NCBI RefSeq assembly: GCF_002855555.1 | Contig: NZ_PKRT01000001.1 | Location: forward strand, 1,516,001-1,580,000 | Length of the DNA: 64,000 bases | DNA from: Novosphingobium sp. TH158 | Lineage (GTDB): Bacteria > Pseudomonadota > Alphaproteobacteria > Sphingomonadales > Sphingomonadaceae | Direction: 5' to 3' | Shown here: positions 33,117 to 46,966 of the stretch, piece by piece | Layout: each line of letters opens with the position of its first letter | Position numbering within the stretch: position 1 is the stretch's first letter | Position numbers and translations under genes: made by a program | The notes under the pieces: generated by a model | What the model was told of the DNA's origin: nothing | Seen by the model: only the letters and a program-made list of their open reading frames with translations | Database searches by the model: none

Positions 33117-33695
33117 ATGCGAATTGCGATTGTCGATGAAAGCGCTTCGCGTGCTGCTGTGATCCACGAAGGCCTTGCGGCGCTAAACGACTGCGAGATC
33201 TTTGTCGTTACCGAGCGCTCCGGCCTGGTGAAACGGATCGGCGAGATCGCACCCGATATTGTCCTGATCGACCTTGGCAACCCTTCTCGCGACATGCTGG
33301 AGGAATACTTCGCAGTCACGCGCGCGCTGGCGCGCCCCATCGCCATGTTCGTTGACGAATCCGATGATGAGGCAATTGCCGCCTCGATCGATGCAGGGGT
33401 TTCCTCCTATGTCATCGATGGCCTTGCTCCGCATCGGATCCGGCCCATCCTCGACCTTGCCGTGCGCCGCTTCAATGCCTTTACCCGACTTCAAGCCGAC
33501 CTTGCCGAAGCACAGGGCAAGCTGGCCGAGCGCGAATGCATTGACCGGGCCAAGCGGATCCTGATGGACAGCCGCCGAATGTCGGAGCCCGAAGCCTATG
33601 CCGAACTGCGCAAGACGGCGATGAACCAGGGCCGCCGGATTGGTGAAATTGCCGAAGCGGTCGTCACCGCGCACAAGTTGATGGGAGGCGCATGA
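33117..33695 (+). CDS. nasT: NasT-type ANTAR-domain antiterminator
   Basis: The 192-residue protein has a receiver-like N-terminal half (MRIAIVDESASRAAVIHEGL, DIVLIDLGNPS) and a C-terminal ANTAR domain (ERECIDRAKRILMDSRRMSE, then AYAELRKTAMNQGRRIGEIA). ANTAR domains bind paired hexaloop hairpins in leader RNA and prevent a downstream terminator from forming. Two such leaders lie upstream of nrtA and nirB. It overlaps nasS by 4 bases. In the Azotobacter and Paracoccus systems NasS holds NasT inactive until nitrate or nitrite is bound. A weaker copy of the locus's 16-bp motif lies just before its start. Confidence 0.92.
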   Translation: MRIAIVDESASRAAVIHEGLAALNDCEIFVVTERSGLVKRIGEIAPDIVLIDLGNPSRDMLEEYFAVTRALARPIAMFVDESDDEAIAASIDAGVSSYVIDGLAPHRIRPILDLAVRRFNAFTRLQADLAEAQGKLAERECIDRAKRILMDSRRMSEPEAYAELRKTAMNQGRRIGEIAEAVVTAHKLMGGA

Positions 33696-34900
33696 TGGCC
33701 GAATTGACGATCGGTTTCCTCCCTCTGGTCGATGCCTGCCTGCCGATCCTTGCGCGCGAACACGGCTTTGCCGAGGCCGAGGGGATTTCCCTGCGGCTGC
33801 TCAAGGACATGAGCTGGGCCACGGTGCTCGACCGGCTACTCTATGGCCACAGCGATGCCGCACACATGGTCGCGCCGCTGGCGATTGCGGCGACTCTGGG
33901 GCGCGGGCGGCCGGCGCAGCCTCTCTCGGTGCCTTTCGTGCTCGGGCTGAATGGCAATGCGATCACCCTGCGGCCCGAGCTTGCCGATCAGGTCTGCCCC
34001 AAGGGGCAACTCGGCGATCCCCGGGAAGTTGGCGCATCGCTGCTCAAGGTGGCAACCGCGCGGGCGCAGCAGGGGCGCCCCCTGCGCTTTGGCGTGGTCC
34101 ATCGCTATTCGAGCCACAACTACATGCTGCGCTACTGGCTTGCGGCCAGCGGCATCCGGCCCGACCATGATGTAGAGATCGTCACCATCGCGCCGCCCTT
34201 CTGCACCGATGCCCTTGATGCTGGCGAAGTGGACGGGATCTGCGTGGGCGAGCCGTGGAACTCCGTCGCTGTCGAGCGCGGCGCCGGCCGCATCGTACTG
34301 GTCACGGCTCAGGTCTGGCGGCGCGGGGTGGAAAAGGTGCTGGCCCTGCGCGAACCGGTGCTGGAAGCACGGCACGAGGAGGTGGAAGCCTTGGTCCGCG
34401 CGCTGATCGCCACCGCGCGCCATTTCGTCGATCCGGAGAATTGGGACACGAACGCCGCAATCCTTGCCCGACCCGAATACCTTGACGGGTCGGCCGAGCT
34501 GATCCGCCGAGCCATCGCCGATCGCCTGCTATTGGCGCAAGGCGAGGAACCGATCCATTTTCCGGATTTCATGTTCCAGTATCGCGAAGCTGCGAACTTC
34601 CCCTGGGTCAGCCAGGCCGAGTGGCTATATACCCAGATGGTGCGCTGGGACGGCGGCGGATTCGTCGCCGCCGATGCCGCCAAGGCCGCCCGCGTGTTCC
34701 GGCCCGACGTATACCGCAGTGCACTATTGGGCACGGCCGAACCGCTGCCGGGCGCCAGCTCGAAGGTCGAAGGCAGCCTTGGCGGACCGACCGTGGTGGG
34801 CACCCAGCAGGGCCTTATCACCATGGAACGAAACGCCTTTTTCGATGGCCGCGTGTTCGATCCGGCTGACCTTCCCGGATATCTCGCCAGCCTGCCCTGA
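33692..34900 (+). CDS. nasS: NasS-type soluble nitrate/nitrite sensor
   Basis: The 402-residue protein belongs to the NrtA/CmpA substrate-binding family (LTIGFLPLVDACLPIL, RYSSHNYMLRYWLAASG, ICVGEPWNSVAV) but has no signal peptide or lipobox, which marks it as the cytoplasmic NasS sensor. It should sequester NasT when nitrate and nitrite are absent. The start is the first ATG of ATGATGG overlapping the nasT stop. Compare the related but exported NrtA at 35121-36551, which shares the N-Y-I/M-L-R-Y-W-L-A segment. Confidence 0.9.
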   Translation: MMAELTIGFLPLVDACLPILAREHGFAEAEGISLRLLKDMSWATVLDRLLYGHSDAAHMVAPLAIAATLGRGRPAQPLSVPFVLGLNGNAITLRPELADQVCPKGQLGDPREVGASLLKVATARAQQGRPLRFGVVHRYSSHNYMLRYWLAASGIRPDHDVEIVTIAPPFCTDALDAGEVDGICVGEPWNSVAVERGAGRIVLVTAQVWRRGVEKVLALREPVLEARHEEVEALVRALIATARHFVDPENWDTNAAILARPEYLDGSAELIRRAIADRLLLAQGEEPIHFPDFMFQYREAANFPWVSQAEWLYTQMVRWDGGGFVAADAAKAARVFRPDVYRSALLGTAEPLPGASSKVEGSLGGPTVVGTQQGLITMERNAFFDGRVFDPADLPGYLASLP

Positions 34901-34911
34901 CGAAAAATTTA

Positions 34912-34927
34912 TGCTGCACTGCAAAAA
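34912..34927 (+). promoter_or_regulatory. 16-bp element shared by the two nitrate operons (copy 1)
   Basis: TGCTGCACTGCAAAAA occurs here and again, identical, at 40564-40579. Each copy is followed 19-20 bases after its start by CTTGCC, which could contain a -35 box, and lies 68-70 bases before the first leader hairpin. It is probably an activator or promoter element. Confidence 0.55.
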
Positions 34928-34979
34928 TCGCTTGCCGATGCATCCGCGAATCGCTTAGCAATAGCTCTGCAGGAGCGGG

Positions 34980-35089
34980 GCGGACCAAGGAAGGGCCGCG
35001 GTTTTCCGCCTTGCAACCAGTTTCACATTGCGTGGCAACGGAGCCGCCCGACCTGACCCTCTACCGGGGTCTGTTCGAGGCGGTTTTTT
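34980..35089 (+). promoter_or_regulatory. ANTAR-target leader RNA before nrtA (hairpins P1 and P2 plus terminator)
   Basis: P1 (34980-34999) has loop AAGGAA and P2 (35032-35047, stem GTGGC/GCCGC) has loop AACGGA. Both are six-base loops with A at position 1 and G at 4, the known ANTAR signature. The 3' arm of P2 is also the 5' arm of a terminator stem, CCGCC (35044-35048) with GGCGG (35079-35083), followed by six T. The folds are therefore mutually exclusive, so NasT bound to P2 would permit read-through. Confidence 0.85.
35044..35089 (+). terminator. regulated intrinsic terminator in the nrtA leader
   Basis: The stem CCGCC/GGCGG encloses an inner GACCC/GGGTC hairpin and ends in TTTTTT at 35084-35089, 31 bases before the nrtA start. 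It shares bases with hairpin P2 of the leader. Confidence 0.75.
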
Positions 35090-35120
35090 GTTGTTCGCGC
35101 TTCAGACGGGGTACGGCGCG

Positions 35121-36551
35121 ATGGCACAGTGTTCGGCAATTCGTTTCGACAGGCGCGGCATGGTGGCAGCGCTGCTGCTGGCAAGCGCACTCGCCGGCTG
35201 CGGCAGCTCCGGCGGCGATGACCCGGCCCCGACCGGCGACATCGCCAGGATCGCGGGCGAAAAGGGTATCGAGAAATCGAATCTGAAGCTCGGCTTCATC
35301 AAGCTGACCGACATCGCTCCGCTGGTCGTCGCCAAGGAAAAGGGCTTCTTCGCCGAGGAAGGACTTAACGTGACGCTAGAGCCGCAGGCCAACTGGAAGG
35401 TGCTGCTGGACGGCGTGACCGGCGGCCAGCTCGACGGCGCACACATGCTGGCGGGCCAGGTCCTCGCATCGGGCGCAGGCATCGGCGCCAGGCAGAAGCT
35501 GGTAACCCCCTTCAGCCTCGACCTCAACGGCAAGGGCGTGACAATCTCCAACCAGGTCTACGGCCTTATCGCCCCCGGCCTGCCCAAGGGGCCGGATGGC
35601 AAGGTTACGCACCCCGTTTCCGCCGCAGCGCTGAAACCCGTGGTCGAAAAGTTCAAGGCCGAGGGCAAGCCCTTCAAGATGGGCATGGTCTTCCCCGTCT
35701 CCACGCACAACTACATCCTGCGCTACTGGCTGGCGGCTGGCGGGCTGAACCCCGGTTACTACCTGCCCGGCGACACCGCGGGCACCACCCGCGCGGAAGT
35801 GCAGCTTTCGGTCACCCCGCCGCCGCAGATGCCCGCCACGCTGGAGGCCGGCACGATCAACGGCTATTCGGTGGGCGAACCCTGGAACCAGGCCGCCGTC
35901 GCCAAGAAGATCGGTGTGCCGATCATCGTCGACCCCGACATTGCCGGGACGACGGGCGACAAGGTCTTTGGCCTGACCGAGGACTTCGCCAAGGCCAATC
36001 CCAAGACCACCCAGGCGCTGACCCGCGCGCTGATCCGCGCCTCGATGTGGCTCGATGCAGAGGGCGGCAAGAACCGGCCCGAGGCGGTGAAGCTGCTCGC
36101 CTCGCCCAAATATGTCGGCGCGGACGAGAAGGTGCTGATGGCATCGATGACCGGCAAGTTCACCTTCGGCGAAGGCGACACGCGCGACACGCCGGAGTTC
36201 AACCTGTTCTTCGACCAGCAAGCGAGCTACCCCTTCTGGTCGGACGCCATCTGGTTCCTGACGCAGATGCGCCGCTGGGGCCAGATCGCCGAAGCCAAGC
36301 CCGACCAGTGGTATCTTGATACGGCCAAGGCGGTCTATCGCACCGACATCTACGATACCGCCGCCGCCAGCCTGGTGGCCGAGGGCAAGGCTCCGGCCGC
36401 TGCCTTTCCCAAGAGCGACGGCTTCCGCACCTACACTCGCAAGGCGATCGACGGCGTGACCTTCGATCCGAAGAAGCCCGCCGCCTATGCGGCCGGTTTC
36501 GCCATTGGCCTGAAGGACGGCCAGACCGTTACCCCGGCCGGCGTGAAGTAA
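35121..36551 (+). CDS. nrtA: nitrate ABC transporter substrate-binding lipoprotein NrtA
   Basis: The 476-residue protein has a lipoprotein signal: basic IRFDRRG, a hydrophobic core, then lipobox LAGC at about residues 24-27. Substrate-binding repeats of the NrtA/CmpA family follow ([45 protein letters not shown]). It should capture nitrate or nitrite in the periplasm for NrtB and NrtCD. The ATG at 35121 gives the full signal peptide; an ATG at 35160 would lose the basic part. It is the first gene after the NasT-responsive leader. It is a homologue of NasS but exported. Confidence 0.92.
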
Positions 36552-36564
36552 GGACCCCGATACC

Positions 36565-37563
36565 ATGAACGCTACCGCAGCAGTGAAGGACACCTTCGAA
36601 GTGGACCAGGAGATTGCCCCACCTGCCGAGATGGCGAAGCCTGCTCCGGCAGAGCCGGTGAAGGCCGGCCTGCCCTTCGGCCTAAAGCTGCCGCCGGCCC
36701 GTGCCGTCTTTGACGCAACATGGCCGCCGGCAGCCGGTATCGGGGGCTTCCTGCTGCTCTGGGCCCTGCTCGCGCCCCTTGTGAAGACCTCGCTCGGCAC
36801 CCTGCCGGGACCGGGCGATGTCTGGACCGCCTTCACCGGCCTGATGGGCGAGGCAGCGGCATCACGCGCCGAAGCGGCAGCCATCGAGGCGAGCGGCGGC
36901 AGCTTTACCGGGCCGCCCAGCTTCACAGACCAGATCGTCACCTCGCTGCACACGGTTGCGCTCGGCTTCATCCTCGCCAGCCTTGTCGCCGTACCGCTGG
37001 GGCTGGTCGCCGGAATGTCGAAGCGGATCAACGCGGCGATCAACCCCCTGATCCAGGTCATGCGCCCGGTCAGCCCGCTGGCATGGCTGCCGATCGTGAC
37101 GATGTTGGTCTCGGCATCGATGTCGAGCGGGGATGACAGCTTCCTGCCGAAGAGCTTCGTGATCTCGGCCGTGGTGGTCATGCTCTGCTCGCTGTGGCCG
37201 ACACTCATCAACACCGCCGTCGGCACCGCCTCCATCGACAAGGACCTGATCAACGTCGGCCGTGTGCTCAAGCTCGGCTGGGCAGCGCGGCTCACGAAGC
37301 TGGTCCTGCCCAGCTCGCTGCCCTTCATCTTCACCGGCATGCGCCTTTCGCTCGGCACTGGCTGGATGGTGCTGATCGCGGCGGAAATGCTGGCGCAGAA
37401 CCCCGGCCTGGGCAAGTTCGTCTGGGACGAGTTCCAGAACGGCAGCGAAAAGTCGCTCGCCCGCATCATGGTCGCCGTGGTGGTCATCGGCCTGATCGGC
37501 TTCGCCCTCGACCGCATCATGATGGTGCTGCAATCCTTCGTCAGCCGCAACCGGACCTTCTGA
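36565..37563 (+). CDS. nrtB: nitrate ABC transporter permease NrtB
   Basis: The 332-residue protein has a long hydrophilic N-terminus of about 50 residues, then membrane segments and the permease EAA-like loop (DKDLINVGRVLKLGWAARLT, next to VLPSSLPFIFTG). It should form the inner-membrane channel as a homodimer. A loop of about 40 residues (SRAEAAAIEASGGSFTGPPS) between the first two membrane segments is longer than I expect for this family. It lies 13 bases after nrtA and 2 bases before the ATPase gene, so they are co-transcribed. Confidence 0.92.
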   Translation: MNATAAVKDTFEVDQEIAPPAEMAKPAPAEPVKAGLPFGLKLPPARAVFDATWPPAAGIGGFLLLWALLAPLVKTSLGTLPGPGDVWTAFTGLMGEAAASRAEAAAIEASGGSFTGPPSFTDQIVTSLHTVALGFILASLVAVPLGLVAGMSKRINAAINPLIQVMRPVSPLAWLPIVTMLVSASMSSGDDSFLPKSFVISAVVVMLCSLWPTLINTAVGTASIDKDLINVGRVLKLGWAARLTKLVLPSSLPFIFTGMRLSLGTGWMVLIAAEMLAQNPGLGKFVWDEFQNGSEKSLARIMVAVVVIGLIGFALDRIMMVLQSFVSRNRTF

Positions 37564-37565
37564 CC

Positions 37566-39248
37566 ATGACCCAGACCCCCATCCTTTCCCTTCGCGGCGT
37601 GACCAAGCGCTACGCCTCGGCGAGCGGCACCAGCGAAGTCCTCGGCGGTATCGATCTCGATGTGCGCGAAGGCGAATTCATCGCCGTCCTCGGCTTCTCC
37701 GGCGCGGGCAAGACCACGCTGGTTTCGACCATCGCCGGCTTGATCGAACCCGACGAGGGCGAGATCCTGCTTCGCGGCGTGACCGTAGACGGACCCGGCA
37801 AGGACCGGGGCTTGGTCTTCCAGTCCTACTCGCTGTTCCCCTGGCTGACCGTGGAGGCCAATGTCGCGCTCGCAGTCGACGCCGTCCACAAGGACCGCAG
37901 CGCCGAAGACCGGGCCGCTCTGGTGCGGCAGAAGGTCGAACTGGTCGGGCTCGGCCACGCGATGGACCGTAAGCCCGCGCAGCTTTCGGGCGGCATGCGC
38001 CAGCGCGTCGCCGTGGCCCGCGCGCTCGCCATGGAGCCGGAAATTCTGCTGCTCGACGAGCCGCTTTCCGCGCTCGATGCCTTGACCCGCGCCAAGTTGC
38101 AGGACGAGATCGAGCGCATCCGCAAGGAAGAGAAGCGCACGATCATCCTCGTCACCAACGATGTCGACGAGGCGCTGCTGCTGGCGGATCGCGTGGCCGT
38201 GCTCACCCCCGCCCCCGCCGCCACCATCGGCCGGATCTTCGACGTCGCCATCCCCCGCCCGCGCGATCGCGAGGCGGTGAACGACGATGCCGCGTTCCAG
38301 GCCCTGCGGCGCGAGATCGTCAATTACCTTGGCTCGCTGGTGGCGCAGAAGCAGGCGGGCGGCAGCGACTATGGCAACCTGCCAAACGTTACTCCGCTCG
38401 ACCTTGCACCGCTTCCCAAGGCCTATGTCGAGGCCGCCAAGGGCAACAACGCGCGGCGCTATCTGGAATTCTACAACCTCCACAAGGTCTACCCCACGCC
38501 CAAGGGGCCGCTGATCGTGGTCGAGAATTTCAACCTGCTGATGGACAAGGGCGAGTTCATCTCGCTGATCGGCCATTCGGGCTGCGGCAAGTCGACCGTG
38601 CTGACCATGGCCTCGGGCCTCAACGCGATCAGCAAGGGTTCGATCATTCTCGACAACCGCGAGGTTGACGCAGCTGGGCCGGACAAGGCCGTAGTCTTCC
38701 AGGCACCCAGCCTGATGCCATGGCTGACCGCACGGCAGAACGTCGCGCTCGGCGTGGAGCGGGTCTATCCGCACGCATCCAAGGCCGAACGCCGCGAGAT
38801 CGTCGACTATTACCTCGAACGCGTCGGACTTGCCGATGCGCGCGACAAGCTGGCGGCGGAGATGTCGAACGGCATGCGCCAGCGCGTCGGCATCGCCCGC
38901 GCCTTTGCTCTGAGCCCGCGCCTGCTGCTGCTCGACGAGCCCTTCGGCATGCTCGACAGCCTGACCCGCTGGGACCTGCAGGACGTGCTGGTCGAAGTGT
39001 GGAACCGCACCAAGGTGACTGCGATCATGGTGACGCACGATGTCGACGAGGCGATCCTGCTGGCCGACCGCGTGGTGATGATGACCAACGGCCCCAACGC
39101 CACCATCGGCAAGATCCTGAAGGTCGACCTGCCGCGCCCGCGCGACCGCAAGGCGCTGCTCAAGGACCCGCAGTTCTACGCTTACCGGCAGGAGGTTCTG
39201 CACTTCCTCGCCGAATACGACCACGGACCGGACGCAGAGGCGGCCTGA
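37566..39248 (+). CDS. nrtCD: nitrate ABC transporter ATP-binding protein, two fused nucleotide-binding domains
   Basis: The 560-residue protein contains two complete ABC domains. The first has Walker A GFSGAGKTT near residue 45, signature LSGGMRQRVAV and Walker B ILLLDEPLSALD. The second has Walker A GHSGCGKST near residue 343, signature MSNGMRQRVGI (Asn in place of the first Gly) and Walker B LLLLDEPFGMLD. In cyanobacteria NrtC and NrtD are separate ATPases; here they are one chain. NrtC-like C-terminal regulatory domains are absent. It energises nitrate import with NrtB. It is followed by the outer-membrane channel gene after 53 bases. Confidence 0.92.
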   Translation: MTQTPILSLRGVTKRYASASGTSEVLGGIDLDVREGEFIAVLGFSGAGKTTLVSTIAGLIEPDEGEILLRGVTVDGPGKDRGLVFQSYSLFPWLTVEANVALAVDAVHKDRSAEDRAALVRQKVELVGLGHAMDRKPAQLSGGMRQRVAVARALAMEPEILLLDEPLSALDALTRAKLQDEIERIRKEEKRTIILVTNDVDEALLLADRVAVLTPAPAATIGRIFDVAIPRPRDREAVNDDAAFQALRREIVNYLGSLVAQKQAGGSDYGNLPNVTPLDLAPLPKAYVEAAKGNNARRYLEFYNLHKVYPTPKGPLIVVENFNLLMDKGEFISLIGHSGCGKSTVLTMASGLNAISKGSIILDNREVDAAGPDKAVVFQAPSLMPWLTARQNVALGVERVYPHASKAERREIVDYYLERVGLADARDKLAAEMSNGMRQRVGIARAFALSPRLLLLDEPFGMLDSLTRWDLQDVLVEVWNRTKVTAIMVTHDVDEAILLADRVVMMTNGPNATIGKILKVDLPRPRDRKALLKDPQFYAYRQEVLHFLAEYDHGPDAEAA

Positions 39249-39301
39249 CGCTATCCGGGGAGGATGCCTGAAGGAGTCAAGGCTTCTCAGGAGGGAAAAA
39301 G

Positions 39302-40555
39302 ATGAGGAAAATCGTTCTGGCGGCGACCGCACTCGCGGCGCCGGTCGCCCTTGCTCACCCTGCGCTTGCTGCCCCCGGAGATCCGGTAAAGATCGCCGGC
39401 GGGCTCAGCCTCGATCCGATTTTCGACATGCGGCTGCGCTATGAGAATGTCGACCAGCCGGCGACCAATGCCGATGCCGTGACCCTGCGCGTGCGCGCGG
39501 GAGCGGAGCTGAAGCATGCCAGCGGCCTGTCGCTGCTGGCGGAGGCCGAGGGCACGCTCGGCGTGGTCAATGATTACAACGCCTTCCCCTTCGTCATCGC
39601 CGACAGCCAGCGCCGCCCCGCCTTCTCGGTCGTTGCGGACCCGATGAACATCGACCTCAACCGCCTGCAGGTGCAGTACAAGTCCAAGCCGCTCACCGCC
39701 ACGGTCGGGCGCCAGCGCATCAACCTCGATGACCAGCGCTTCGTCGGCTCCGTCGCCTGGCGCCAGAACGAGCAGACTTTCGACGCGGTGCGCGCCGAGG
39801 CCAGCCTCGGTCCGGTCAGCCTGGATGCGACCTATGCGATCAGCCAGCGCACGATCTTCGGCTTCGATGCTGGTCCGCGCACGGCCTATGACGGCGATTT
39901 CGTGTTCCTCGGCGCAGGCGCAAAGCTGGGGCCGGTGAACCTCAAGGCATTCGGCTACCTGCTCGATTTCGACACCAAGGAGCAGGCGGGCGCCCTCGCC
40001 ACCACCAATGCCGATACGATGACGCTGGGCGCAAGGGCGACGGCGAGCTTCAAGCTTGCGCCCAAGACCACGCTGAACCTCGCCGCCAGCTATGCCCGCC
40101 AGTCCGACTATCAGGACAACCCGGCGAGTTACGGCGTCGATTACATCGCGGCGGAAGCAGGCTTGGCCTTTGGCCCGCTGGGATTGACGGCGGGCTATGA
40201 ACAGCTTGGCTCCGATGGGGTGCGCAGCGTTCAGACGCCGATGGCTACCCTGCACAAGTTCCAGGGCTGGGCCGACCTGTTCCTTACAACCCCCGCAGCG
40301 GGGATCGAGGACATCTACGGCGGCCTGTCCTGGAAGTTCGCGGGCGTGAAAGCGCTGCCGGGACTCAACGCGGCCTTCACCTATCACCGCTACGAAAGCG
40401 CATTCGGATCGGTGCATTACGGTGACGAATGGAACGCATCGATCGGCTTCAAGCTGAAGCGTATCACGGTGTTCGCCAAGTACGCCGATTACGACGCGGA
40501 CCTGTTCGGCAGCGATACGAAGAAGTTCTGGCTGCAGCTCGAAATGGCGTACTGA
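39302..40555 (+). CDS. outer-membrane beta-barrel channel, alginate-export-domain family
   Basis: The 417-residue protein has a signal peptide (MRKIVLAATALAAPVALA, cleaved near ALAA) and alternating amphipathic strands ending in LQLEMAY, a typical barrel terminus. It has the VGRQRINLDDQRFVG segment common to this family. These barrels form passive pores. Here, in the nitrate operon, it probably lets nitrate cross the outer membrane. The ribosome site AGGAGGG lies nine bases before the ATG. It closes the nrtA operon; the next leader begins within 80 bases. Confidence 0.82.
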   Translation: MRKIVLAATALAAPVALAHPALAAPGDPVKIAGGLSLDPIFDMRLRYENVDQPATNADAVTLRVRAGAELKHASGLSLLAEAEGTLGVVNDYNAFPFVIADSQRRPAFSVVADPMNIDLNRLQVQYKSKPLTATVGRQRINLDDQRFVGSVAWRQNEQTFDAVRAEASLGPVSLDATYAISQRTIFGFDAGPRTAYDGDFVFLGAGAKLGPVNLKAFGYLLDFDTKEQAGALATTNADTMTLGARATASFKLAPKTTLNLAASYARQSDYQDNPASYGVDYIAAEAGLAFGPLGLTAGYEQLGSDGVRSVQTPMATLHKFQGWADLFLTTPAAGIEDIYGGLSWKFAGVKALPGLNAAFTYHRYESAFGSVHYGDEWNASIGFKLKRITVFAKYADYDADLFGSDTKKFWLQLEMAY

Positions 40556-40563
40556 GGTGAAAT

Positions 40564-40579
40564 TGCTGCACTGCAAAAA
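40564..40579 (+). promoter_or_regulatory. 16-bp element shared by the two nitrate operons (copy 2)
   Basis: It is identical to the copy at 34912-34927 and followed by CTTGCC at 40584-40589. TTGCCA at 40585-40590 with TAGTCT at 40608-40613 (17-base spacer) could be the nirB promoter, which would put the element just upstream of the -35. Confidence 0.55.
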
Positions 40580-40633
40580 AGTCCTTGCCAGCAGGGGGCG
40601 GGTTCCATAGTCTTCCCCTGACCCGGCACACCG

Positions 40634-40742
40634 CCGCCCAAGGAAGGGCGGGCAACGGCGCCGGACATACAATCGAACACACGTGGCAACGAAGCCGCCT
40701 GTTTCCGTCCCTTCATCGGGCCGGTTGCAAGGCGGCTTTTTT
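40634..40742 (+). promoter_or_regulatory. ANTAR-target leader RNA before nirB (hairpins P1 and P2 plus terminator)
   Basis: P1 (40634-40651) is a perfect CCGCCC/GGGCGG stem with loop AAGGAA. P2 (40683-40698) is GTGGC/GCCGC with loop AACGAA. Both loops have A1 and G4. The 3' arm of P2 lies inside the 5' arm of the terminator, so the two folds compete. The layout matches the nrtA leader, with a linker of 31 bases against 32. Confidence 0.88.
40692..40742 (+). terminator. regulated intrinsic terminator in the nirB leader
   Basis: AAGCCGCC (40692-40699) pairs with GGCGGCTT (40731-40738), enclosing a smaller CCG/CGG hairpin, and runs into TTTTTT at 40737-40742, 28 bases before the nirB start. Confidence 0.78.
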
Positions 40743-40769
40743 CGTTGCGCGTATGCCAAGGAGACCAAG

Positions 40770-43268
40770 GTGAACGCGCCTTCGACTTTCGATCTGAACG
40801 GCAAGGGCGGGGAAACCGCCGAAAGGCTCGTCGTTATCGGCAACGGCATGGCAGGCTGTCGCGCCGTGGAGGAAATCCTTGCCCGCGATCCCGGTCGCTA
40901 TGCCGTGACGATCTTCGGCGCGGAACCCCGCGTCAATTACAACCGCATCATGCTCTCCCCCGTGCTGGCGGGTGAGAAAGCCTTCGACGACATCGTCATC
41001 AATGGTGAGGATTGGTACGCCGACAACGGCATCACGCTGGTGTCCGGCGATCCGGTGGTGGCTATTGACCGCAAGGCGCAGGCCGTGGTGGCAAAATCTG
41101 GCCGGGTCGAACCCTACGACCGCCTGCTGATCGCCACGGGGTCCGATCCCTTCATTATCCCGGTGCCCGGCCACGACTTGCCCGGCGTCGTCACCTTCCG
41201 CGACCTTGACGATGTCGACCGCATGCTGGCGGCGGCGGAAAAGGGCGGCAGCGCGGTGGTGATCGGCGGGGGCCTTCTCGGCCTTGAAGCAGCCCATGGC
41301 CTTTCGCTGCGGGGCATGACCGTGACCGTCGTTCACCTTATGCCGACGCTGATGGAACGCCAGCTCGACGAGGCCGCAGGCTATCTGTTGCGGAGCGAAC
41401 TCGAACGGCGCGGCCAGACCATCGTTACCGGTGGCGATACCGCCGCTATCCTCGAACAGGACGGCCACGTTACCGGCGTCCGCCTCAAGGACGGGCGCGA
41501 ATTTCCCGCCGATATCGTTGTCATGGCCGTCGGCATCCGCCCCGCAACCGCGCTCGCCAAGGCGGCGGGGCTCGAGGTCGAGCGTGGAATCCTAGTCGAT
41601 GACCACATGGTCACTTCCGACCCCGCGATCATGGCCGTGGGCGAATGCGTCCAGCACCGGGGCACCTGCTATGGCCTGGTCGCGCCGCTGTGGGATATGT
41701 GCCGCGCGCTGGCCGATCACGCCACCGGCACGCCGACCGGCTACGAAGGCTCGGTAACTTCGACGAAGCTCAAGGTCTCAGGCATCGACCTGTTTTCCGC
41801 CGGAGACTTTTCCGGCGGCGACGGCGCGGAAGACATCGTCATGCGCGATGCCTCGCGCGGCGTTTACAAACGTGTCATCGTCAAGGAAAACAGGCTGGTC
41901 GGTGCCGTGCTCTATGGCGATACCGCCGACGGCAACTGGTACTTCGACCTGCTCAAGAAAGGCGAAGACGTTTCCGACATCCGCGAGGCGCTGATCTTCG
42001 GGCAGGCCTTTGCTGCCGGAGGTGCCCTTGCGGACCCTAACGCCGCCGTTGCTGCCCTTTCCGACGATGCGGAGATCTGCGGCTGCAACGGCGTATCCAA
42101 GGGCAAGGTGGTCGGCTGCATCCTCGGCGGGGCGCACAGCCTCGACAAGGTGCGCTCGGCCTGCAAGGCTTCGGCAAGCTGCGGTTCGTGCACCGGCCTT
42201 GTCGAGAGCCTGCTCAGCCTGACGCTGGGTGGCGAGATCGAGAGCGGGCCGAAGACGCTGTGCAAGTGCACCAGCTTCACGCATGACGACGTGCGCCGCC
42301 TCATCCTCGAGAAGAACCTCCGCCTCATCCCGCAGGTGATGCAGGAACTGAGCTGGTCCACTCCCGATGGCTGCGCCAGTTGCCGCCCGGCGCTCAACTA
42401 CTACTTGCTCTGCGCCTGGCCGGGCGAATACGTGGACGAGCAGCACAGCCGCTTCGTCAACGAACGGATGCACGCCAACATCCAGAAGGATGGCACTTAT
42501 TCAGTGGTGCCGCGCATGTGGGGCGGCCTCACCAACCCCCGCGAGCTGCGCGCAATTGCCGATGTGGTGGAAAAATACAACGCGCCGATGGTGAAGGTCA
42601 CCGGCGGCCAGCGGCTCGATATCTTCGGCATCAAAAAGGAAGACCTGCCCGCCGTCTGGGCCGATCTCAATGCCGCCGGGATGGTTTCGGGCCACGCCTA
42701 TGGCAAGTCCTTGCGCACCGTGAAGACTTGCGTCGGCAGCGAATGGTGCCGCTTTGGCACGCAGGATTCGACCGGGCTGGGTGTCAAGATCGAGCACATG
42801 ACCTGGGGATCGTGGATGCCCCACAAGTTCAAGATCGCCGTCTCCGGCTGCCCGCGCAATTGCGCTGAGGCGACGATCAAGGACTTTGGCGTGGTCTGTG
42901 TCGATAGCGGTTATGAACTGCACGTCGGCGGCAACGGCGGCATCAAGGTGCGCGCGACCGACCTGCTCTGCAAGGTCGAGACCGAGGCCGAGGCGATGGA
43001 AATGTGCGCCGCCTTCATCCAGCTTTACCGCGAACAGGCGCATTACCTCGAACGCACCGCGCCGTGGATCGAGCGGGTCGGGCTCGACCACGTGAAGGCC
43101 GCACTGTTCGATGATCCCGAGGCTGTCCCGGCACTCGCCGCCCGCTTCTACTACTCGCAGCAGTTCATGCAGGACGACCCCTGGGCCAAGCGCGCCGCGG
43201 GCGAGGATACCGAACTGCACCAGCACCTAGGCGAGGTGCGCCCCCTTGTTCTGGAGACAGCACGATGA
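40770..43268 (+). CDS. nirB: assimilatory nitrite reductase (NADH) large subunit
   Basis: The 832-residue protein has an FAD/NAD reductase half (VVIGNGMAGCRAVEEI, VVIGGGLLGLEAA), a BFD-like [2Fe-2S] segment (C-G-C-N ... CGSC near residue 450), a second cysteine-rich region (CKCTSF ... CASC) and the siroheme/[4Fe-4S] site TCVGSEWC with SGCPRNC. It reduces nitrite to ammonium with NADH. The GTG at 40770 is set by AAGGAG seven bases upstream; an in-frame GTG at 40683 lies inside the leader hairpin. It overlaps nirD by 4 bases. cobA, three genes downstream, makes the siroheme precursor. Confidence 0.95.
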   Translation: MNAPSTFDLNGKGGETAERLVVIGNGMAGCRAVEEILARDPGRYAVTIFGAEPRVNYNRIMLSPVLAGEKAFDDIVINGEDWYADNGITLVSGDPVVAIDRKAQAVVAKSGRVEPYDRLLIATGSDPFIIPVPGHDLPGVVTFRDLDDVDRMLAAAEKGGSAVVIGGGLLGLEAAHGLSLRGMTVTVVHLMPTLMERQLDEAAGYLLRSELERRGQTIVTGGDTAAILEQDGHVTGVRLKDGREFPADIVVMAVGIRPATALAKAAGLEVERGILVDDHMVTSDPAIMAVGECVQHRGTCYGLVAPLWDMCRALADHATGTPTGYEGSVTSTKLKVSGIDLFSAGDFSGGDGAEDIVMRDASRGVYKRVIVKENRLVGAVLYGDTADGNWYFDLLKKGEDVSDIREALIFGQAFAAGGALADPNAAVAALSDDAEICGCNGVSKGKVVGCILGGAHSLDKVRSACKASASCGSCTGLVESLLSLTLGGEIESGPKTLCKCTSFTHDDVRRLILEKNLRLIPQVMQELSWSTPDGCASCRPALNYYLLCAWPGEYVDEQHSRFVNERMHANIQKDGTYSVVPRMWGGLTNPRELRAIADVVEKYNAPMVKVTGGQRLDIFGIKKEDLPAVWADLNAAGMVSGHAYGKSLRTVKTCVGSEWCRFGTQDSTGLGVKIEHMTWGSWMPHKFKIAVSGCPRNCAEATIKDFGVVCVDSGYELHVGGNGGIKVRATDLLCKVETEAEAMEMCAAFIQLYREQAHYLERTAPWIERVGLDHVKAALFDDPEAVPALAARFYYSQQFMQDDPWAKRAAGEDTELHQHLGEVRPLVLETAR

Positions 43269-43606
43269 TCGGAGAATGGCTCGATATCGGCCCGGTAAGC
43301 CAGATCGCCCCCGGCAATGCCCGCACCCTGCCGGTACGCGGCGGAGAGGAGATTGCGGTCTTCCATACGCTCGACAACCAGTTCTATGCCCTCGTCAACA
43401 AGTGCCCGCACAAGCACGGACCACTCAGCCAGGGCATCGTCCACGGCAACGTCGTCACTTGCCCCCTGCACAGCTGGAATATCTCCCTCAAGACCGGCGA
43501 GGCCATGGGCGATGACAAGGGTTGTGTGCCGACGATCCCGCTCAAGGTCGATGCAGGCCGCTTGTACCTGCTGCGCGATGCGGTTGTCGGGAAAGCAGCG
43601 GCGTGA
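43265..43606 (+). CDS. nirD: nitrite reductase (NADH) small subunit, Rieske type
   Basis: The 113-residue protein is a Rieske-like domain with C-P-H-x15-C-P-L-H (KCPHKHGP to CPLHSWNI), so it should carry a [2Fe-2S] cluster. This four-ligand set is intact, unlike the small subunits of some bacteria. It partners NirB. It overlaps nirB and nasA by 4 bases on each side (ATGA, GTGA), indicating coupled translation. Confidence 0.93.
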   Translation: MIGEWLDIGPVSQIAPGNARTLPVRGGEEIAVFHTLDNQFYALVNKCPHKHGPLSQGIVHGNVVTCPLHSWNISLKTGEAMGDDKGCVPTIPLKVDAGRLYLLRDAVVGKAAA

Positions 43607-46194
43607 AGGCGGTCCGCACCACCTGCGCCTATTGCGGGGTCGGCTGCGGCATCCGGGCCGAAGTGACCGGCGCGCGCGCGCTCACCATCAAGGGCGATCC
43701 CGAGCATCCCGCCAACTTCGGACGGCTCTGTTCGAAGGGCACCCACCTGGGTGAGACTGTCGGGCTGGAAGGCCGCCTGCTGGCGCCGATGATCGGGAAC
43801 CGGCAGGCAGGCTGGGACGAAGCGCTGGACCTTGCCGCGGCGAAAATGCGCGAATGCATCGCCGAACATGGGCCAGACAGCGTCGCCTTCTACGTCTCGG
43901 GCCAGCTGCTGACCGAGGATTACTACGTCGCCAACAAGCTGATGAAGGGCTTCATCGGCAGCGGCAACATCGACACGAACAGCCGCCTGTGCATGGCGAG
44001 CGCAGTTGCCGCGCATAACCGCGCCTTCGGCGAGGATATCGTCCCGTGCACCTATGACGACCTCGAGGAAGCGGACCTCATCCTGCTGGTCGGCTCCAAC
44101 ACCGCCTGGTGCCATCCGGTGATCTGGCAACGGATAGAGGCGGCGCGCGAGAAGCGCGGCAGCAAGCTGGTGGTCCTCGACCCGCGCCGCACCGAGACAG
44201 CAGAGCGGGCCGACCTGCATCTCGCCATTGCGCCCGATGGCGATATCGCCTTGTTCAACGCCCTGCTGGCGGAGATGCGCGACCGCGGTTTGGTCGACAG
44301 CGGTTATCTGGCCGCGAACTGCACGGTCCCCCAAGGCTTCTTGGAGAGCCTGGACAGCCGGAGCCCGGGCGTTGACTTCCCGTCCTTCGCTGCCCTGTGC
44401 GACCTTGTCGCTGCCCGCCCGCGCATGGTCACCCTGTTCAGCCAGGGCGCGAACCAGTCGCGAAGCGGGACTGACAAGGGCAATGCAATCATCAACCTGC
44501 ACCTGGCGCTGGGGCGGATCAATTCTGCAGGCGCAGGACCGTTCTCGATCACGGGACAGCCCAATGCGATGGGCGGGCGTGAAGTTGGCGGGCTGGCCAA
44601 TACGCTTGCCTGTCACCTCGGATTTTCCGCAGAGGAGCGCGCCGAGGTGGCGATGTTCTGGAATGCCCCGAACATCTGCGCGGGGCCGGGCCTGAAGGCG
44701 GTCGACCTGTTCCGCGCGGTCCATGATGGCCGGGTGAAGTTCCTCTGGGTCATGGCGACCAACCCCGCCGTGTCGATGCCCGACGCCGGATTCGTGCGCG
44801 AGGCGCTGGCGCGCTGCGAAACGCTGGTCGTGTCCGACATCATCGCCGATACCGACACCGCGCGCCTCGCGCATATCCGCCTGCCCGCGCTCGGCTGGGG
44901 GGAGAAGGACGGCACCGTTACCAATTCCGAGCGCCGCATCAGCCGCCAGCGCGCGCTGTTTGCCGCTCCCAGCCAGGCCCGCGCCGACTGGGCGATCCTG
45001 TGCGATTTCGCACAGCGCATGGGCTGGGGCCGGGCTTTCGATTTCACCTGCGCCGCCGACGTTTTCCGCGAATATGCAGCGATGACCGCGCTCGCGGCCC
45101 GGCATGGCAAGGTGCTCGATCTGTCGCACCTTTCCGCCATCGGTGATGCCGAATATGACGCGATGGAACCCTTCCTTTGGGGCGGCGCGCACCCGCTTGC
45201 AAAGCGCTTCATCCAGGCCGGCGGCAAGGCGCGGGTGGTTGCGGTGGCAGCGCCGGCACCGGTCATGGCGGACATCCACTTCCCCTTCCGCCTCAACACC
45301 GGGCGCTATCGCGACCAGTGGCACACCATGACCCGCACCGGGCTCTCCCCCACCCTCTCGCAGCACCGGCGCGAAGCGCTGCTCGAGGTTCACCCGGATG
45401 ACGCTGCGGCGCAGGGTCTCGAAGACGGCGGCCTCGCCCGCGTCACCACTGCGGCGGGCACCGCACTGTTCCGCGTCGCCGTGACGAATGGTCAGCGCCG
45501 CGGTGATCTGTTCGTGCCGATGCACTGGACGGACGCGATGGCAGGCCAAGCGCGGGCCAACCGCCTGGCGCTGTCCGATACTGATCCCGTTTCCGGCCAG
45601 CCGGGCTTCAAGAACACCCCGGCGCAGGTCGAGCCGGTAACGCCTGACTGGCGCGCCTTCCTCGCCTCCCGGGAAGCCATTCAAGTCTCGGGCGTGCTAT
45701 GGTGGAGCCGCTCCCGCATCGCCCAAGGCTGGCTGGTCGAACTGGCCGGCGTGGGCGACATCGATGTCGAGCCACTGCTCCCCTTTGGCGAGCGGATCGA
45801 AGCAGCAGATCTCGCACGCGGCATGCGGCGGATCATCGTGCGGGGGCCAAGTGACAGCGTAGAGGCAGCGCTTTATGTCACCCGCAGCGGTGAACTGCCC
45901 CCGCGCGACTGGGTTGCCGCGCAGGTGGGTGATGCCGGGGGCGGGCCACTGGAACTGCTCGCCGGCCGTCCCGCCACCCCGCAGCCTGATCGCGGCACCA
46001 TCGTCTGCGTCTGTCACGGCATCGGTGCGAACCAGATCCGCGAGGCGGCCTGCACGGGCGCGGCAACGGTCGAAGCCATTGGCGAGGCGACCAGCGCCGG
46101 CAGCAATTGCGGATCATGTCGCCCGGCCATCGCCCGCATCCTTGAACTCTCCCTTCCCAATCCCAGGAGGCCGCCGAATGACCGATTTTCCTGA
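43603..46194 (+). CDS. nasA: assimilatory nitrate reductase catalytic subunit with C-terminal [2Fe-2S] domain
   Basis: The 863-residue molybdopterin enzyme has an N-terminal [4Fe-4S] motif (CAYCGVGC, then LCSKG), molybdopterin-binding blocks (SNTAWCHPV, GQPNAMGGREVGG, TNPAVSMPD) and the C-terminal dinucleotide domain (FPFRLNTGRYRDQWHTMTR). The last 55 residues are a BFD-like [2Fe-2S] domain (C-V-C-H ... C-G-S-C), as in Klebsiella-type NasA, which lets the subunit take electrons directly. It reduces nitrate to nitrite in the cytoplasm. The GTG at 43603 overlaps the nirD stop. Its end overlaps cobA by 17 bases. Confidence 0.94.
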   Translation: MKAVRTTCAYCGVGCGIRAEVTGARALTIKGDPEHPANFGRLCSKGTHLGETVGLEGRLLAPMIGNRQAGWDEALDLAAAKMRECIAEHGPDSVAFYVSGQLLTEDYYVANKLMKGFIGSGNIDTNSRLCMASAVAAHNRAFGEDIVPCTYDDLEEADLILLVGSNTAWCHPVIWQRIEAAREKRGSKLVVLDPRRTETAERADLHLAIAPDGDIALFNALLAEMRDRGLVDSGYLAANCTVPQGFLESLDSRSPGVDFPSFAALCDLVAARPRMVTLFSQGANQSRSGTDKGNAIINLHLALGRINSAGAGPFSITGQPNAMGGREVGGLANTLACHLGFSAEERAEVAMFWNAPNICAGPGLKAVDLFRAVHDGRVKFLWVMATNPAVSMPDAGFVREALARCETLVVSDIIADTDTARLAHIRLPALGWGEKDGTVTNSERRISRQRALFAAPSQARADWAILCDFAQRMGWGRAFDFTCAADVFREYAAMTALAARHGKVLDLSHLSAIGDAEYDAMEPFLWGGAHPLAKRFIQAGGKARVVAVAAPAPVMADIHFPFRLNTGRYRDQWHTMTRTGLSPTLSQHRREALLEVHPDDAAAQGLEDGGLARVTTAAGTALFRVAVTNGQRRGDLFVPMHWTDAMAGQARANRLALSDTDPVSGQPGFKNTPAQVEPVTPDWRAFLASREAIQVSGVLWWSRSRIAQGWLVELAGVGDIDVEPLLPFGERIEAADLARGMRRIIVRGPSDSVEAALYVTRSGELPPRDWVAAQVGDAGGGPLELLAGRPATPQPDRGTIVCVCHGIGANQIREAACTGAATVEAIGEATSAGSNCGSCRPAIARILELSLPNPRRPPNDRFS

Positions 46195-46966
46195 CGGCAT
46201 GGTCTGGCTCGTCGGGGCAGGACCGGGGGATCCGGAACTGCTGACGCGAAAGGCCGAACGCCTGATCGCCGCCGCGAGCGTGGTGTTTTACGATGCACTG
46301 GTCGGCCAGGGCGTACTCGACCTCATTCCGCGAGGGGTGCGAACCGTGTCGGTCGGCAAGCGTGCCGGCCGGCACTCGAAGGATCAGGCGACCATAGACG
46401 AACTGATCGTCCGGGCAGCACTGGCTGGTGAACGTGTGGTTCGCCTCAAAGGCGGGGATCCGTCCATATTCGGCCGTGCCGCCGAGGAGATCGATGCCTG
46501 CAGAGCAGCCGGGGTTCCGGTGGCGATCTGCCCGGGCATAACCGCCGCAATTGCCGCTGCTGCCAGCCTGTCACGTTCATTGACCCTGCGCGGACTGGCG
46601 CGGAAGCTGGTATTCGCGACGGCGCATTACCGCGCCGGCAAACCGATCGATCTTGATTGGCAGGCGCTCGCCGATCCGCAGACGACGCTCGCCATCTATA
46701 TGGGCAAGGCTGCGGCCGCCGAGGTGTCGCTTGGGCTGCTTTCCCAGGGCCTGCCACCTGATACCCCAGTTGCCGTCATCGAGAACGTTAGCCTCGCAAA
46801 TGAGGTTGTCATCTCTACCCGGCTCGACCTTCTTCCGCTGGCCGCGCAATCGTGTCCGGGAACGGGCCCGGCAGTCCTTCTCATCGGGACGGCAATCGCG
46901 AACCCTGTTGCGACAAATCTGCGGGAAGACGCGGCCTGGTGCAGGTTTACGGAACAGCCATCATGA
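46178..46966 (+). CDS. cobA: uroporphyrinogen-III C-methyltransferase (siroheme synthesis)
   Basis: The 262-residue protein has the SUMT motifs: VWLVGAGPGDPELLT at the N-terminus, VVRLKGGDPSIFGRA near residue 85, and GITAAIAAAASLSRSLTLRG. It makes precorrin-2, the first step to siroheme, which NirB needs. No CysG oxidase/chelatase domain is fused, so those steps must come from elsewhere. The ATG at 46178 has AGGAGG eight bases upstream and overlaps the nasA end. Placement in the operon matches siroheme demand. Confidence 0.93.
   Translation: MTDFPDGMVWLVGAGPGDPELLTRKAERLIAAASVVFYDALVGQGVLDLIPRGVRTVSVGKRAGRHSKDQATIDELIVRAALAGERVVRLKGGDPSIFGRAAEEIDACRAAGVPVAICPGITAAIAAAASLSRSLTLRGLARKLVFATAHYRAGKPIDLDWQALADPQTTLAIYMGKAAAAEVSLGLLSQGLPPDTPVAVIENVSLANEVVISTRLDLLPLAAQSCPGTGPAVLLIGTAIANPVATNLREDAAWCRFTEQPS

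Follow-up and report, generated by a model that had tools for sequence, protein, structure and literature searches.

Two RNA leaders of one design stand in the nitrate-assimilation locus of the window (the whole analyzed stretch of 64,000 nucleotides from Novosphingobium sp. TH158), one before nrtA and the other before nirB. The leader before nirB is very probably a two-hairpin, ANTAR-type element at which NasT is predicted to prevent formation of a terminator and thereby admit polymerase into nirB, with a like leader for nrtA. The paired two-leader layout recurs in dozens of related genomes, where one hairpin, P1, and the upper part of the terminator covary; among 119 genomes of the family, leaders were found only in company with an ANTAR gene.

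Organization of the nitrate-assimilation locus

The 2.98-Mb genome around the window is 99.96% complete. From nasT to cobA every gene points in the same direction (+ strand), in the order nasT, nasS, leader 1, nrtA, nrtB, nrtCD, porin, leader 2, nirB, a nirD-like frame lying between nirB and nasA, nasA and cobA. The nasT gene (33117..33695; Pfam ANTAR, 65.3 bits) encodes a response-regulator-like ANTAR antiterminator and is the single ANTAR match in the whole genome; sequence relatives of its product in the PDB include the putative antiterminator 1s8n, the nitrate regulatory protein 4akk, and AmiR 1qo0. The adjoining gene nasS (33692..34900; Pfam NMT1_2, 217.6 bits) overlaps the end of nasT and provides the NMT1_2-family partner that characterizes a NasS-NasT system. 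By analogy with Paracoccus NasS, as described in the available part of PMC3795266, NasS is likely the nitrate/nitrite sensor.

Judged from their domains, nrtA, nrtB, and the double-ATPase nrtCD (35121..39248; Pfam NMT1_2, BPD_transp_1, and two ABC_tran stretches) likely serve nitrate uptake, and a gene for a porin-like outer-membrane protein (39302..40555; Pfam Alginate_exp and Porin_4) is the final gene of this first unit. The second unit begins with nirB (40770..43268; Pfam Pyr_redox_2, NIR_SIR, and Fer2_BFD), the gene for the large subunit of assimilatory nitrite reductase, whose product is closest to those of Novosphingobium and kin among the fetched loci. Downstream are genes for a nasA-type molybdopterin nitrate reductase and a cobA-type methylase (43603..46966; Pfam), the nasA start near 43603 being a by-eye reading. 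The longest nirB open frame begins at a GTG inside the P2 hairpin of the leader (40683 onward), so automatic annotation could put the nirB start inside the leader; the true start is likely the GTG at 40770, behind the probable ribosome-binding site AAGGAGA (40758..40764).

Anatomy of the two leaders

A second NasT-type leader with a perfect P1 stem had been proposed before nirB from the sequence alone, and the stem, loops, and terminator can indeed be read there directly. The upper P1 hairpin pairs CCGCCC with GGGCGG (40634-40639/40646-40651) in a perfect 6-bp stem around the loop AAGGAA (40640-40645). The second hexaloop hairpin, P2 (40683..40698), is the predicted antiterminator, identified by sequence and fold; it pairs GTGGC with GCCGC (40683-40687/40694-40698; 5 bp, one G-U pair) around the loop AACGAA (40688-40693) and is modest when folded alone, with 9 of 200 shuffles equally good. 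The intrinsic terminator (40694..40742; -26.6 kcal/mol, z -4.93) consists of a stem at 40694-40736 followed by six T (40737-40742), and its upper stem shows covariation in relatives. Bases 40694-40698 are common to the 3' arm of P2 and the 5' arm of the terminator. When the whole leader is folded, P1 and the terminator are present and P2 is absent, which matches the expected off state. Of the leader extent first given, 40634..40742, the end stands but the start does not, as the base of P1 pairs from 40623. The bases after the T run (e.g., GCGTGCG or CGTTGCG; 40743-40752 in the window) are alike in many leaders, and in the window pairing is possible between TTCGTTGC (40741-40748) and the P2 bases GCAACGAA (40686-40693).

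Leader 1 (34974..35089), recovered by the descriptor scan and by a window-free profile (E 2.3e-22), has its upper P1 at 34981-34998 (loop AAGGAA, 34987-34992; one A-G mismatch), its P2 at 35032-35047 (loop AACGGA, 35037-35042), a terminator from 35043, and a T run at 35084-35089. Both hexaloops have A1 and G4 in both window leaders. The sequence-only reading had described a two-hairpin-plus-terminator design repeated some 5.7 kb apart with almost the same spacing, and the measurements agree: P1 and P2 of leader 1 lie 5653 and 5651 bases upstream of their counterparts in leader 2, and the loop-to-loop spacing is 48 in leader 2 versus 50 in leader 1. Its further statement that stems differ while loops are conserved between the two leaders is true for P1 alone, because P2 has the same stem in both, with loops that diverge at position 5 (AACGAA versus AACGGA). 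The minimum-energy fold of leader 1 from 34973 lacks the AAGGAA hexaloop; folded from 34960 the hexaloop is present, but 14 of 200 shuffles fold equally well.

Concerted evolution of the two leaders as a general process was considered and rejected, as within-genome identity is not above between-genome identity for the promoter (0.567 and 0.567) or P1 (0.551 and 0.548) across the 42 loci with both leaders; for the terminator it is barely above (0.664 and 0.645). As a separate observation, the terminators of the two leaders are near-identical (0.82-0.89) in the top four loci (L003, L004, L007, and L011), all of the Novosphingobium group, as though through copying of one onto its partner.

Specificity of the leader motif

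A descriptor comprising two A1/G4 hexaloop hairpins and an overlapping terminator gave 93 matches in 82 stretches versus 5 when each stretch was dinucleotide-shuffled once, in scans of both strands; among the 93 are L001, which duplicates part of the window, and a few matches evidently due to chance. In the window and 80 loci the P2 motif occurs at 116 places on the + strand and at 1 on the other. With window rows excluded, a profile built from 39 relatives returned the two leaders as the sole matches in the 64 kb among matches listed to E 10 (E 8.8e-23 and 2.3e-22), and in the whole genome model R1, which includes the window leaders, found them at E 2.7e-22 and 4.2e-22, the next match being at E 0.28. 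No Rfam family reaches its gathering score in the window, and a search of 34900-40800 at E up to 5 yielded two sub-threshold Rfam matches, both outside the leaders and neither relevant. A simple terminator scan, with 1 found versus 0.5 in shuffles, is weak evidence.

Conservation and covariation of the leaders

The scan confirmed 239 NirB-relative stretches, and the best 80 of these 239 were used as the set of loci. By strict motif, a leader stands before nirB in 64 of these 80 loci and is missing in 16. Counting the window, nasT, nasS, and nirB stand in this order in 55 stretches; both leaders are present in 41 of these, the first only in 5, and neither in 9. These nine belong to Sphingomonas and Sphingobium, and in them model R1 finds a diverged leader, with clear matches in eight (E from 5.9e-9 to 6.9e-4) and a weak one in the ninth (L078; before nirB, E 0.015). 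On the NirB tree, the leader presence label requires 4 changes, of which starred branches force 3.

The 116 motif places were reduced to 110 rows by dropping three cut by a locus end, one chance match (L046), and two in which the P1 rule found no hairpin (L052 and L060). Of these 110 leaders, 41 were hand-picked for alignment A2, and A3 holds 64 of the 65 nirB leaders, L028 being omitted as much like L023. A P1 hairpin is present under the rule in 110 of 112 complete motif places, compared with 1-53 of 112 in eight shifted slots. When no loop rule is applied, the best 6-loop hairpin at the P1 place has G4 in 108 and A1 in 89 of the 112; G1 occurs in the P1 loop of 19 of the 110 retained leaders. 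The equivalent count for the P2 loop is no test, since the collecting motif fixed its A1 and G4. A terminator tail follows 114 of the 116 places, the misses being L042 (variant stem) and the chance match L046.

Compensatory changes in relatives had been set beforehand as the test of the proposal, and they are found for P1. Its positions pair in 88.8% of cells (110 rows, 103 distinct), and double changes keep pairing at 5 of the 6 pairs, in 104 cells. The covariation score is 0.467 versus 0.158 in shuffles, none of 500 of which reaches it, and at most 0.148 when slid. For P1 and the terminator together, the score is 0.349 versus at most 0.120 slid (41 of the 110 leaders), and double changes are also present in the upper terminator stem of these 41. 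The five pairs of P2 are constant across the 41 rows, for which the collecting motif, which fixes P2, is partly responsible, and they thus give no covariation evidence either way. A class-wide R1 search of 289 genomes, our own included, gave matches in just 5, one of them outside the family, making R1 too clade-specific for testing P2 covariation at a distance.

A predicted base helix under P1

The whole P1 domain (40623..40664), delineated by its fold and by an arm-swap control in relatives, sets the upper hexaloop hairpin (40634-40651) on a bulged base helix with pairs at 40623-40627/40660-40664 and 40631-40633/40656-40658 and a four-base bulge. The fold of this domain in leader 2 has z -2.62, with 3 of 200 shuffles equally good. 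A base helix of at least 4 pairs is present in 48 of 65 nirB leaders versus an arm-swap mean of 25 and maximum of 35 (500 swaps); the window helix has three contiguous pairs by this count. Among the upstream leaders, the mean base-helix score of 8.37 exceeds all 500 swaps (maximum 8.29), but those with at least 4 pairs, 20 of 45, are below the swap maximum of 21. Minimum-energy folds have at least 4 outer pairs around upper P1 in 63 of 65 nirB leaders and 38 of 45 upstream leaders, versus swap maxima of 53 and 32 (100 swaps). The base helix is absent from the consensus fold of the ungapped P1 alignment.

Upper P1 is followed by a linker of about 33 nt on average, of which about 9 nt remain outside P1 in minimum-energy folds. 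For EutV, lengthening of the linker by 20 nt is reported to abolish antitermination, only a limited linker being tolerated (PMC8934654, in the part available). Given that limited tolerance, the base helix may act to bring P2 near.

A shared promoter block with a PhaR-like box

A 16-base promoter element, TGCTGCACTGCAAAAA, stands in perfect copy before both leaders (34912..34927 and 40564..40579), and the copy before leader 2 contains the PhaR-box core TGCACTGCA, whose consensus derives from Sinorhizobium as given in the available text of PMC12542648. Behind it we predict a promoter at 40584..40613, with a -35-like CTTGCC (40584-40589) and a -10-like stretch ending near 40613, read by eye within the conserved block. 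A sigma-70 consensus scan of 40540-40800 gave zero matches, so that it is conservation on which the promoter call is based. A sigma-54 promoter in the upstream block was also considered and is unsupported on a by-eye reading.

The element matches at 11 or more of its 16 bases before 62 of 65 nirB leaders and 41 of 45 upstream leaders, as against 94 of 2000 random 150-nt windows, and, with one exception in each set, it is 72-81 bases upstream of the P1 loop. In the genome it is perfect at the two leaders only and recurs within two mismatches at six further places; read backwards, it has zero genome matches within two mismatches. Some of the six near copies adjoin a phasin gene, phaC, and a thiolase gene, and two have no visible PHB link; the PHB-linked recurrences are at 376082, 2139390, 2141341, and 2141386 of contig G000:C1.

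The PhaR core YGCRNYGCR occurs at a fixed place before 60 of 65 nirB leaders and 41 of 45 upstream leaders versus 156 of 4000 random 40-nt slots. The complete Sinorhizobium consensus of 21 bases fits in 8 of the 65 nirB leaders and in 8 of the 45 upstream ones, with 3 fits in 4000 control slots, and neither window copy is exact. The exact 12-mer core has eight occurrences in the genome, three without a visible PHB link, the reversed control giving one match, and across 21 genomes the 12-base core appears 62 times versus 8 for the reversed control. A PhaR-domain gene is present at 482585. We regard the PhaR-like box at the nas promoters as a lead, not proof. A tentative extension, to which we give somewhat less than even credence, is that PhaR, as a sensor of PHB carbon, gates the promoters while NasS and NasT gate the leaders of both units, coupling nitrate assimilation to carbon reserves. 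Our literature search of titles and abstract starts found no report linking PhaR with nitrate assimilation or nas; if PhaR does read the element, nitrate assimilation would be tied to carbon storage in Novosphingobium and kin.

Leaders accompany the ANTAR gene and probably mark separate units

Among 119 genomes of the family, an ANTAR gene is present in 41 and a leader, by model R1, in 25. Every one of the 25 leader genomes also has an ANTAR gene, which leaves no leader in the remaining 78 (25 of 41 versus 0 of 78; Fisher p 3e-15, from genome lists matched by handle and compared by eye). For the 16 ANTAR-positive genomes in which R1 finds no leader, either R1 is tuned to its clade or NasT has a different role there. 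Two or three leaders are present in 15 of the 25 leader-bearing genomes.

That one regulator would govern uptake and reduction as separate units, as first proposed, is supported by the single ANTAR gene and by four results that fit separateness: the promoter block at a nearly fixed distance before each kind of leader, short gaps before nirB where the leader is missing, second leaders on the opposite strand, and a distant leader. Where the leader before nirB is missing, the upstream open frame lies 13-55 bases from nirB in 12 of 16 loci; where it is present, the median gap is 231 (range 1-430; 65 loci, by a crude open-frame measure). In genomes G036 and G051 the second leader is on the strand opposite to the nasT leader, before a cobA-nirB-nasA group, and in G098 about 475 kb separate the leader before nirB from nasT. 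Read-through checkpoints within a single operon therefore cannot account for every second leader. The leader element common to both units and the covariation of P1 make it likely that a single NasT opens both separately, through binding and read-through that we infer.

The principal alternative is that nirB is mostly read through from the nrt unit, with leader 2 serving as a second NasT checkpoint within one long operon. The uniform gene direction from nasT to cobA fits this arrangement, and the relatives without a second leader, with nirB at most 55 bases from the upstream frame in 12 of 16, indicate that a single-operon layout exists. We nonetheless consider it unlikely for the window, given the promoter block 72-81 bases before P1 in nearly all leaders and the opposite-strand and distant second leaders just described. 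As it keeps NasT at leader 2, the rest of the preferred explanation would be compatible with it.

Two further readings would remove NasT or antitermination from the scheme. The hairpins and terminator could form a simple attenuator, or could serve to terminate the porin unit, with NasT uninvolved; at -26.6 kcal/mol the terminator is strong by itself, and P2 is without covariation. P1, however, is unneeded by a terminator and yet covaries and keeps G4 in its loop, and the absence of leaders from all 78 ANTAR-less family genomes argues in the same direction, so that this reading is very improbable. Still less probable is a leader that acts post-transcriptionally, for instance by hiding or exposing the ribosome-binding site, even though ANTAR elements without terminators near ribosome-binding sites are described in the available part of Ramesh et al. 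(PMC3369931); in leader 2 the terminator overlaps P2 and ends at 40742, before the ribosome-binding site begins at 40758.

Under the preferred reading, NasT-dependent antitermination at both leaders, NasS would hold NasT when nitrate is lacking, and the terminator would halt transcription before nirB. Nitrate or nitrite would likely free NasT from NasS, as is reported for Paracoccus in the available part of PMC3795266. The freed NasT would bind the P1 loop through A1 and G4 and then P2, and P2 held in this way would withhold 40694-40698 from the terminator stem. The bulged base helix of P1 would absorb part of the roughly 33-nt linker and draw the loops nearer, and the two leaders would place uptake and reduction, as separate units, under one nitrate signal.

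Kinase and narK genes beside leaders in relatives

In several loci (L002, L005, L015, L034, L043, L045, L048, L050, L059, and, from G098, L120), a NasT leader is followed by an opposite-strand PP2C-Ser/Thr kinase gene and then by narK on the leader strand. The kinase frame ends 39-61 bases beyond the leader T run in eight of nine named loci (the frame in L034 is unclear). Read-through, in several relatives from the first leader, would cross the kinase gene antisense, and this gene order is a candidate noncontiguous operon. Elsewhere, a third leader (L118; G013:C43, - strand, 10331) lies on a different contig from nasT and precedes a short frame and a gene for a PP2C-kinase fusion that shares its strand, and the kinase may therefore belong to the NasT regulon. 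A search of our own genome, run without a positive control, did not find a relative of the kinase-phosphatase.

Discussion

NasT leaders in Novosphingobium, and the combination of Novosphingobium, nirB, and antitermination, are the subject of no report found in our literature search of titles and abstract starts. The leaders are a well-supported addition to a switch type that is already known; what is novel is that the two-unit layout recurs, that P1 has a base helix, and that both promoters share a PhaR-like box. The natural set assembled here (110 leaders with P1; 42 loci with both leaders) bears on how one ANTAR protein reads two leaders and on how far apart two hexaloops may lie.

Romeo (2012) and Nie (2024) reportedly treat the NasT-NalA leader that precedes nirBD in Pseudomonas aeruginosa and P. 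putida. Antitermination by NasT at the nirBD leaders of Pseudomonas has been reported (PMC12830290, in the text available; title of Romeo 2012), and the likeness is close, NasT antiterminating a leader before nirB there and being predicted to do so here. According to the same portion of PMC12830290, Pseudomonas nalA is driven by sigma-54 and NtrC, whereas here no sigma-54 motif is seen by eye and a promoter block is common to the two leaders. In Paracoccus denitrificans, NasT binds a two-hairpin leader RNA with nitrate (PMC3795266 and PMC5424462, as far as their available parts go), and nasTS likewise stands beside the two-hairpin nasA leader; that system has one leader and one nas operon in these accounts, whereas here two leaders split the locus. 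EutV (Enterococcus eut) and NasR (Klebsiella nasF) share the A1/G4 hexaloops and a P2 overlapping the terminator (available sections of PMC7496416 and PMC8934654), but the linker here averages about 33 nt and is partly folded into the P1 base helix. In Bradyrhizobium, NasT hairpins precede nirA, narK, and others, and not all act as expected: narK-bjgb, with predicted NasT hairpins on its mRNAs, is expressed more strongly without nasT (PMC6759348, in the excerpt available). Finally, Desulfotomaculum and Pelobacter have ANTAR elements on several nitrogen operons per genome, with nitrite reductase and nitrate transporters among the targets of such multi-leader regulons, as here (Ramesh 2012, PMC3369931, part of the text); those regulons span several units, whereas here a locus of two units recurs, and one and the same promoter block precedes both leaders.
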